Part shown: positions 30,427-33,898 of the stretch, piece by piece | Layout of the letters: every line of letters begins with the position of its first letter | Numbering within the stretch: the stretch's first letter is position 1 | Assembly (NCBI GenBank): GCA_024637035.1 | Contig: JAGXFW010000029.1 | Coordinates: forward strand, 1-38,571 | Origin: Actinomycetes bacterium | Lineage (GTDB): Bacteria; Actinomycetota; Thermoleophilia; RBG-16-64-13 | Direction: 5' to 3' | DNA: 38,571 nt | Position numbers and translations under genes: made by a program | The notes under the pieces: model-generated | Databases searched by the model: none | What the model was told of the DNA's origin: nothing | Seen by the model: the letters and a program-made list of their open reading frames with translations, nothing else

Positions 30427-31146
30427 ATGAGACGCATCCGGATTCTGGTAGTCCTACTGGTGGCCATGATCGCTGTTTTGGCCTTCGCCGGACCGGCCCA
30501 GGCCCTCACGGTGGCGGAGCGCCTGGTCGCCCTGGAGAGCGCAGTTGCCGCATTGCAGACAGACAACACCGCCCTGGCGGGACGGGTGACAACGCTGGAG
30601 ACGGAGAACACCGCCCTGAAGGCGAAGGTGACCACCCTCGAGACCAGCACGGTCATGAAACTGAACCCCTAGCTTCAGGTCACCGGCATAAGCATGAACG
30701 GTCTCAAGGGTCCCCACGTCATCTTGAAAGGTGTGAACCTTCACCTGCGCAACAACAGCGGGATCACGGCCTCCCAGAACGGCCTAGGCAACCTCATCAT
30801 CGGCTACGACGAGAAGCCGACCACCACCCTGCGCTTCGGCTCGCACAACTTGATTATCGGTCCCTACCACAACTTCACCTCCTACGGGGGACTGGTGGCG
30901 GGATATCGGAACACGGTATCGGGCCCCTGCGCCAGCGTGAGCGCGGGCTGTGACAACACGGCAAGCAACTACTACGGCAGCGTGAGCGGGGGAACACGCA
31001 ACACGGCGAGCGGCGAGTACTCCAGCGTGAGCGGGGGCCTATTCAACACGGCGAGCGGGCTTGTGGCCAGTGTGAGCGGCGGCTCTTCCCGTAGCGCCGG
31101 CGGTCAGTACGACTGGCGGGCGGGCGAATTGTTCCAGGATCAGTAG
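30427..31146 (+). pseudogene. Secreted coiled-coil / 15-residue-repeat protein gene interrupted by an in-frame TAG
   Basis: One frame runs from the ATG at 30427 (GGGAGGGG upstream) to the TAG at 31144, interrupted by a single TAG at 30670-30672. The first part (81 residues) has a signal peptide (RRIRILVVLLVAMIAVLAFAGPAQA) and a heptad-like coiled coil with TLETENTALKAKV. After the amber codon the same frame continues as LQVTGISMNGLKGPHV, then NGLGNLIIGYDE, GSHNLIIGPYHN, four repeats of the form NTASGxYxSVSGGxx, and WRAGELFQDQ. The parts fit one extracellular protein related to NTASG/SVSGG repeat proteins, which resemble the stalk-and-head layout of adhesins. A Tyr is likely at the amber position. 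It is probably a recent pseudogene; read-through, suppression or sequencing error are alternatives. Function is unknown. Confidence 0.75.
30910..31089 (+). repeat. Four tandem 45-bp coding repeats (15-residue NTASG...SVSGG unit)
   Basis: Four consecutive units of 45 bases encode NTVSGPCASVSAGCD, NTASNYYGSVSGGTR, NTASGEYSSVSGGLF and NTASGLVASVSGGSS. The Gly/Ser pattern suggests a beta-roll or YadA-head-like fold. Confidence 0.85.
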
Positions 31147-31305: not shown

Positions 31306-32949
31306 GTGAGTCGAGGTCAGAAGACCCCTATGCTAGTCGAGGATCTCGAGCGCAGTATCGAGGTCATGCTGCCTCGCGCCCTCGCTGAGTCATGGGACAA
31401 CGTCGGGCTGTTGGTGGGTCGGCGTGGCACGGTAGTACGAAAGATCCTGGTCGCGTTGGATATCTGTGAGGACGTGGTGGTCGAAGCGGTCACCGGCGGC
31501 TTCCAGGCGATCATCACGCACCACCCGCTCATCTTCACGCCGCTGGCCCGCGTCACCGACAGGGACCGAGTCGGCGTCATAGTGACCCAGCTCATCGCCG
31601 CGGACATCGCGCTCTTCGCCTGTCACACTAACCTCGACGCGGCTCCTGAGGGTCTCAACGACATCGTGGCTCGGGAACTCGGGTTGGCCGACATGTGGCC
31701 GCTGGTGCGGGCGACAGCAGGTGTGAAGAAGCTCGTAGGGTTCGTGCCCGAGGAGGCGCTGGGCCGGGTGGCGGACGCGGTCTTCGAAGCCGGCGGTGGT
31801 CGCATAGGCGAGTACGAGCGCTGCGCCTTCGAGACCGGGGGAGAGGGTTCATTCGTTCCCAGTACGGAGGCTCGACCGACCGTAGGTGTTCCGGGGCGAC
31901 CGGAGCGTGTAGCCGAGATCAGGTTCGAGACCGTCGTGCCCGCGGGCAAGGTGGTCTCTGTCGTCCAAGCATTCATCGAATCTCACCCCTACGAAGAACC
32001 CGCGTTCGATGTCTATCCTGTCGACAACGTCATCTCTAACGGTGGGATCGGCCGAGTCGGGAAGACCCGCATACCCATCTCGTTGGTGTCGTTGGCAGAG
32101 ACTGCGGCCGAGGTGTTCGGGCTTCCAGAGGTGTGCTACGTCGGAGACGCCGAGCGCGCCATCGACCGCGTGGCCGTCGTCACGGGCAGCGGCGCCGGCC
32201 TCATGGAGCAGGCGGCCGCCGTGGCCGACGCGTACGTCACCGGCGACCTGAAGTACCACGACGCGGACCGGGCCGCCGCATTGGGGCTCGCTCTGATCGT
32301 GATCCCCCATGATCATCTGGAGACGTGGGCGATGACTCGTTGGTCCGAGGTGCTGGCCGCTCATCTGCTCGATCAGAACGTTGCCGTTCAGTTCTCCACA
32401 AGCGCTCGATCGCCGTGGCGCAAGGCCCGGCCGGTGTCTCACGCGGGAGTACGCGGCGGAGCCTCCCGACTCTTCGATCTGGAGGAGGCGGGAGGAGAGG
32501 TGCCGGAACGCGCGTTGCAGCTGGGGGTGCCTGACACGAACGATGGTGACTCATTCGTGCTTCGCACAGACGGGGCGTCGAGGGGGAATCCGGGGCCCGC
32601 GGCCATAGGTGTGGTGCTCGAGGACCCCGACGGCAACGTGCTCGAGGAGATCGGCGCCTGCATAGGCACAGCCACCAACAATCAGGCCGAGTACCAGGCG
32701 CTACTCACCGGCCTCGAGACCGCCCTCGATAGGGGCGTCGTCCGCGTGCAGATCAACTCGGATTCGGAGCTCATGGTGCGACAGCTGCGCCAGGAATACA
32801 AGGTGAAGAACGAGCAACTCAAGGAGCTGTACCTCCAGGCCCGCGCTTTGATCCAACGATTCGAGCGGGTAGACGTGAAACACGTCCCCAGGGACGAGAA
32901 CCAGCGAGCCGATGCCTTGGCGAACCGGGCGCTCGACGGGTTGAACTGA
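31306..32949 (+). CDS. Fusion protein: NIF3/DUF34 dinuclear-metal domain + ribonuclease HI
   Basis: This single 547-residue protein has two families joined. Residues about 10-370 are a NIF3 (DUF34, YqfO-type) protein. It carries the metal-binding motifs ESWDNVGLLVG, ITHHPLIF, CHTNLDAAPEG and GDLKYHDADRA, with the inserted PII-like domain in the middle (near VPEEALGRVADAVFEAGGG and HPYEEPAFDVYP). A linker of about 45 residues follows. Residues about 417-547 are RNase HI with the complete catalytic set D422 (RTDGASRGNPGP), E462 (NNQAEYQALL), D486 (NSDSEL) and D536 (NQRADALAN). RNase HI removes RNA from RNA-DNA hybrids; the NIF3 role is uncertain. In many actinobacteria the two are separate neighbours with a C4 zinc-ribbon gene between, which is missing here. 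The start is a GTG with only a weak ribosome site. Confidence 0.93.
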   Translation: MSRGQKTPMLVEDLERSIEVMLPRALAESWDNVGLLVGRRGTVVRKILVALDICEDVVVEAVTGGFQAIITHHPLIFTPLARVTDRDRVGVIVTQLIAADIALFACHTNLDAAPEGLNDIVARELGLADMWPLVRATAGVKKLVGFVPEEALGRVADAVFEAGGGRIGEYERCAFETGGEGSFVPSTEARPTVGVPGRPERVAEIRFETVVPAGKVVSVVQAFIESHPYEEPAFDVYPVDNVISNGGIGRVGKTRIPISLVSLAETAAEVFGLPEVCYVGDAERAIDRVAVVTGSGAGLMEQAAAVADAYVTGDLKYHDADRAAALGLALIVIPHDHLETWAMTRWSEVLAAHLLDQNVAVQFSTSARSPWRKARPVSHAGVRGGASRLFDLEEAGGEVPERALQLGVPDTNDGDSFVLRTDGASRGNPGPAAIGVVLEDPDGNVLEEIGACIGTATNNQAEYQALLTGLETALDRGVVRVQINSDSELMVRQLRQEYKVKNEQLKELYLQARALIQRFERVDVKHVPRDENQRADALANRALDGLN

Positions 32950-33128: not shown

Positions 33129-33205
33129 GCGGATGTAGCTCAGTTGGCTAGAGCGTCTGCTTGCCATGCAGAAGGTCGAGGGTTCGAATCCCTTCATCCG
33201 CTCCA
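33129..33205 (+). tRNA. tRNA-Gly (anticodon GCC)
   Basis: The acceptor GCGGATG/CATCCGC, D-arm GCTC/GAGC, anticodon stem TCTGC/GCAGA with loop TTGCCAT (anticodon GCC) and T-arm GAGGG TTCGAAT CCCTT all fold. The discriminator is T and CCA is encoded (33203-33205). Confidence 0.97.
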
Positions 33206-33258
33206 ACAACCACCGTGGTCGTCACGGGGCTCTCGGGCCCCGTTTCTCGTGATGGCAG

Positions 33259-33330
33259 GGCGCCGTGGCCGAGAGGCTGAGGCACGGGTCTGCAAAACCC
33301 GATACACCGGTTCGATTCCGGTCGGCGCCT
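33259..33330 (+). tRNA. tRNA-Cys (anticodon GCA)
   Basis: The acceptor GGCGCCG/CGGCGCC, anticodon stem CGGGT/ACCCG with loop CTGCAAA (anticodon GCA) and T-arm ACCGG TTCGATT CCGGT fold correctly. The discriminator T (U73) is the cysteine identity base. CCA is not encoded. Confidence 0.96.
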
Positions 33331-33390
33331 CCTCTCCTGCCCAGCCTTGTCTCATGAACGCGCACCAAGGTATCATTGCCGGGCTTGATC

Positions 33391-33462
33391 GGGCGCTTAG
33401 CTCAGGGGGAGAGCGCTTCCTTGACACGGAAGAGGCCACAGGTTCAAATCCTGTAGCGCCCA
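33391..33462 (+). tRNA. tRNA-Val (anticodon GAC)
   Basis: The acceptor GGGCGCT/AGCGCCC, D-arm GCTC/GAGC, anticodon stem CTTCC/GGAAG with loop TTGACAC (anticodon GAC) and T-arm ACAGG TTCAAAT CCTGT fold correctly. The discriminator is A. CCA is not encoded; a short T-run follows directly. Confidence 0.96.
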
Positions 33463-33898
33463 CTTTTCATGAAGAAGGCCGCCCGCGTAGGTGGCCCGTT
33501 CCATCCCGTGCGTGCAACCATCCTCCTCCTTCCGACGCAGTACCCGCTTCCCGTACCCCGCGGATGACAGGCGGCGTTCCTTCGGCACCTCACGTCTCGG
33601 CGACCATCTCCTCATAGGGCACTTCCGACGTGCAACGAAACGAGGGTCCTAGCGAACGATGGAAGCGTGCTGAGGAGCCACGCGCGCTCCTGAAACCGAC
33701 GGGATCCCGAGTCGATTCACCCAGCGTACAGCCGCCCTTTTGACTGTCTTTGGGGGCGACAATGCGTATGTTATGCTTCGTTACGCATCCGGTCTGGCTG
33801 GCTTTCAGGCGAAGCGCCGAACCGTTCACGTTCTCTCGCCCGTTTGGGTCGCGACCTCGTCGGATGCGGCCATCCACTTCGGGTATGGAGAAGATCGA
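33463..33898 (+). other. Gene-free region with long leader of the RRM protein
   Basis: I see no gene in these 436 bases. The first half shows nothing recognisable. TTGACT at 33740-33745, with AT-rich TATGTTATGCT about 20 bases on, is a candidate but imperfect promoter. If used, it would give the RRM gene an untranslated leader of more than 100 bases, as is common for cold-responsive RNA-binding protein genes. Confidence 0.4.

Follow-up and report, generated by a model that had tools for sequence, protein, structure and literature searches.

Proteins of the NIF3 (DUF34) family are among the most conserved that lack an agreed function. In the stretch of DNA analysed here (38,571 nucleotides at full length, hereafter the window), one reading frame joins a NIF3 protein to ribonuclease HI (RNase HI), which raises the question of what this join says about NIF3. 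The main text of a 2021 survey lists a DUF34-COG0328 (RNase HI) class among notable bacterial DUF34 fusions and ranks COG0328 ninth among DUF34 operon neighbours (PMC8469502). The window protein likewise carries both domain families on one chain, with genome context in support, and is therefore a further member of this published class. The fusion is thus a clue to the role of NIF3 rather than a protein of a new kind. Found here, and not in the main text of that survey, are its conservation across a lineage, its single clade, its status in most of its genomes as the only RNase HI found, and the pairing of a PII-like gene with RNase H in one family, f4.

Domain layout of the fused protein

The fused gene is an uninterrupted frame with a GTG start; ATG 31330 at residue 9, the start of several orthologues, is a possible alternative. 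Its parts and the adjacent tRNA genes are as follows.

31306..32949, + strand: fused gene, 547 aa; NIF3 N-terminal half, PII-like insert, NIF3 C-terminal half, linker, RNase HI
31330..31716, + strand: NIF3 N-terminal half, residues about 9–137, ligands H72, H73 and D111 (PF01784 match, invariant columns, model match to 2gx8/3lnl)
31720..32034, + strand: PII/CutA-like insert of COG3323 type, residues about 139–243, HPYE motif at 227–230 (alignment with YqfO/SA1388-type structures)
32035..32421, + strand: NIF3 C-terminal half, residues 244–372, ligands H335 and E339 (PF01784 match, invariant columns, model)
32422..32553, + strand: linker, residues 373–416, predicted disordered, without cysteine, frame under purifying selection
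32554..32943, + strand: RNase HI domain, residues 417–546, D422, E462, D486 and D536, Rv2228c/Halobacterium type (Pfam, alignment, invariant columns, model)
33129..33463, + strand: tRNA-Gly, tRNA-Cys and tRNA-Val, directly downstream of the fused gene

The Pfam family DUF34_NIF3 (PF01784) matched residues 9–369 over profile positions 1–255 of 256 (E 4e-69), and the TIGR00486 score of the fused protein exceeded the cut-off. Pfam RVT_3/RNase H matched residues 421–542 (E 2e-29), and the RNase H matches as a whole span residues about 418–542. Scores against two NCBIfam models fell below their curated whole-protein cut-offs: 138.9 against 300 for NF041306 (Halo type RNase HI) and 130.2 against 326 for NF005567 (RNase H/acid phosphatase). 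The RNase HI domain is related to both models, and the whole fused protein belongs under neither.

The NIF3 half aligns over its full length, insert included, with Bacillus cereus YqfO (2gx8) and Staphylococcus aureus SA1388, and is of the YqfO type, COG0327 with a COG3323 insert, because it carries the PII-like insert with its HPYE motif. The YqfO/SA1388 structures (PDB 2gx8, 3lnl, 2nyd) share the order of NIF3 N-terminal half, PII domain and NIF3 C-terminal half, the metal ligands and HPYE with the fused protein, but lack an RNase H domain; the structure matches cover about 370 columns at 27–36% identity. The RNase HI domain is of the Rv2228c/archaeal (Halobacterium) type and not of the Escherichia coli RnhA type. 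It belongs to the same subtype as Rv2228c/MSMEG_4305 and Halobacterium RNase H1 (PDB 3hst, 4e19), with 45–47% identity and an rmsd of about 1 Å. Unlike the domain studied here, none of these is joined to NIF3; in Rv2228c and MSMEG_4305 the RNase HI is instead fused to a CobC-type phosphatase, which the fused protein lacks.

An AlphaFold monomer model (mean pLDDT 86.7) showed two well-formed parts separated by a disordered stretch in the linker (residues 376–412, pLDDT below 50). Its NIF3 part matched the YqfO/SA1388 structures with Z scores of 35–36, and its RNase H part matched 4e19 and 3hst with Z scores of 25.8 and 24.7. The preliminary description of this DNA, made from the sequence alone, had reported NIF3 and RNase HI in one polypeptide, with complete metal-binding and catalytic residues and a linker of ~45 residues. 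Each of these points was borne out: both Pfam domains lie in a single 547-aa frame that has 25 complete orthologues, the four RNase H residues occupy the positions given for them, the NIF3 ligands are invariant too, and the linker measures 44 aa. The description missed the PII-like domain, which is possibly the relevant partner.

Reality and origin of the join

The same architecture is found in 25 complete orthologues, the window's own counted, which come from separate assemblies of the families f1, f3 and f6; the others are 42–88% identical to the window protein. All five NIF3 metal ligands and all four residues of the D-E-D-D active site of RNase H are invariant among the 25, and the linker frame is open in every one. 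Comparison of the window with a congener gave dN/dS values of 0.085 for the NIF3 part, 0.145 for the linker and 0.074 for the RNase H part. Because the linkers are open in all orthologues and under purifying selection, we excluded a missed stop or frameshift in the linker, a concern raised in the preliminary description, and likewise an assembly error. The join of NIF3 and RNase HI is genuine, and it is old within its lineage. PII-like domains within frames of more than 500 codons occur in further f3, f6 and f75 genomes and, judged by frame length, are consistent with the fusion. At one f3 locus (L108) the gene is present as two overlapping frames, which may reflect a sequencing error at that site or a damaged copy.

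Among the fused proteins the linker varies from 18 to 72 aa. It was considered as a remnant of a zinc ribbon, and this was rejected: cysteine is missing from the window linker and was present in only 2 of the 26 linkers listed. Several otherwise divergent f1 linkers share an LF[DEG] motif (for example SRLFDLEE), found at about residues 387–394 in the window (32464–32487) and at loci L083–L087 and L099. Judging from sequence, it is possibly a short binding motif and resembles the clamp-binding QxxLF without its Q; since the glutamine is not conserved, a beta-clamp reading was dropped.

How the two genes came together is suggested by their order elsewhere. The preliminary description had stated that in many actinobacteria the two genes are separate and flank a C4 zinc-ribbon gene, which is absent here, and both statements hold. 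Further families of the phylum, as well as Corynebacterium, Cellulomonas and Williamsia, have the order NIF3, coiled-coil C4 zinc-ribbon gene, RNase H, and actinobacterial relatives of the Rv2228c-type RNase HI are encoded downstream of both nif3 and the zinc-ribbon gene. In the three-gene loci examined, NIF3 and RNase H are roughly 600–1000 bases apart, and the four middle genes checked against Pfam matched CT398_CC and Zn_ribbon_9. The zinc ribbon PF02591 had no match in the window genome, nor did one turn up among 61 genomes around the window, with or without the fusion.

All NIF3 parts from fused proteins group in a single clade (support 100/99), which indicates one origin. Trees built from the RNase H domain, with or without the insert, neither show a single origin by themselves nor reject it (AU p 0.15–0.32); these alignments are too short for independent proof. 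The simplest account is a single fusion event after, or together with, loss of the zinc-ribbon gene. The fusion most likely arose once, in the ancestor of f1, f3 and f6 (by frame length also of f75), where the zinc-ribbon gene that separated nif3 from the RNase H gene would have been lost and the two frames joined.

Distribution and the PII-like gene paired with RNase H

The fusion is carried by f1, f3 and f6. In f4, a stand-alone PII-like (COG3323-type) gene of about 100–125 aa lies directly upstream of an RNase H gene of the same type (L114–L120, L206–L215). The stop of the PII-like gene and the start of RNase H overlap by 4 nt (GTGA or ATGA) in 12 of 13 distinct genomes, and in the remaining genome the two genes are about 100 bases apart. 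The PF01784 core had no match in six of the eight f4 genomes searched and was matched in two, and stand-alone PII-like matches occur in dozens more f4 genomes. This arrangement is new here; neither the f4 coupling nor the missing second RNase HI was found in the open-licence papers searched. According to the main text of the 2021 survey, stand-alone insert proteins without a NIF3 form are absent, bar a mimivirus (PMC8469502), and f4 looks like an exception to this rule. Since f4 couples only the PII-like domain to RNase H, mostly with no NIF3 core detected, the true partner of RNase H may, from gene arrangement, be the PII-like lid rather than the NIF3 core. We also considered derivation of the f4 pair from the fusion through loss of the NIF3 core and did not retain it, as the trees are unresolved.

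In f5 and f7, RNase H stands alone, with no PII-like partner in our searches, and NIF3, where found, is unlinked to it. In f2 and f8, a NIF3 core that lacks the insert occurs together with classical RnhA. At two f2 loci, L122 and L124, the insert-less core ends long open frames of 980 and 410 codons.

Searches with PF00075 returned nothing beyond the fused domain in 23 of the 25 fused genomes. Classical RnhA is also present in the window genome (contig C23) and in its congener, which rules out the fused domain as the only RNase HI of the window genome; RNase HII is present there as well. In Mycobacterium smegmatis, a double deletion of RnhA and the homologous RNase HI MSMEG_4305 was unobtainable (PMC4429107), and RNase HI of the MSMEG_4305 type can therefore carry an essential function. 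Two f1 genomes rated 96–97% complete (G014 and G016) gave no NIF3 or RNase HI match, although the fusion is present elsewhere in their genera; the fused protein may thus be dispensable, or these assemblies lack the gene.

Possible roles of the NIF3 and PII-like parts

SA1388 is a PII-lidded hexameric toroid whose insert has a PII fold (PMC1779786). By analogy, the NIF3 half probably assembles into a hexameric ring whose two lids are PII-like trimers, and this ring would hold six RNase HI domains on flexible tethers. These domains most likely perform housekeeping cutting of the RNA in RNA–DNA hybrids, such as R-loops and primer remnants, and the most likely role of the NIF3/PII ring is to tether, multimerise or regulate them by way of the PII-like lid or the di-metal site. 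We consider this reading, a YqfO-type NIF3 of single fused origin that carries a tethered, active-site-complete RNase HI for hybrid removal, fairly probable. The fusion persists across families and is mostly the sole RNase HI found; this makes it a test protein for an effect of NIF3 or of the PII lid on hybrid removal.

The preliminary description had gone further and taken the fusion to tie NIF3 to RNA–DNA hybrid processing. The fusion itself stood; the tie fared less well, as the join may be passive, RNase H in f4 is coupled to the PII-like insert while the core mostly goes undetected, and the genes are unlinked in f5 and f7. Because the two genes lay close together in the ancestor, loss of the intervening gene could join them passively. 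It is possible, if rather unlikely, that this is all that happened and that the halves work independently, the fusion having no functional meaning. The ancestral gene order, the disordered linker of variable length and the unlinked genes of f5 and f7 fit such a neutral event. However, an intact unfused pair was not seen in the f1, f3 and f6 genomes examined, the linker frame is under purifying selection, and f4 keeps a PII-like domain coupled to RNase H.

The f4 pair also bears on whether the functional unit consists of the PII-like insert and RNase HI, with the PII-like part sensing a ligand or metal and controlling RNase H, and the NIF3 core being optional. This is suggested by the near-constant 4-nt overlap, by the f4 genomes without a core match and by the further stand-alone matches, but whether the f4 pair stems from the fusion does not emerge from the trees, and RNase H in f5 and f7 had no such partner in the searches; we hold it to be an unlikely alternative to the tethered housekeeping enzyme. 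A broader proposal, that a PII-like sensor is the conserved partner of RNase HI in this lineage, whether within the NIF3 ring or as the coupled f4 subunit, and makes it a ligand-regulated enzyme, we regard as doubtful. If true, NIF3/YqfO proteins and stand-alone COG3323 proteins would both act in the control of RNA–DNA hybrids. With the f4 pair, the PII-like part can be studied apart from the NIF3 core.

RNase H metals are freely exchangeable Mg2+ or Mn2+, and RNase H is not known to require a metal chaperone. Together with the RNase H genes that lack a detected NIF3 core in most f4 genomes, this makes it improbable that NIF3 is a chaperone loading divalent ions into the fused RNase H, although a published family-wide metal insertase hypothesis counts COG0328 among the metal-binding fusion partners.

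Around the fused gene, the downstream trio of tRNA genes recurs in unchanged order next to the fusions of the congener G001 and of G005; it is a conserved neighbourhood outside the fused protein. Upstream, a small open reading frame (window 30694–31146) encodes repeated SVSGG-NTASG units that resemble the head repeats of trimeric autotransporter adhesins; the host genome is actinobacterial.
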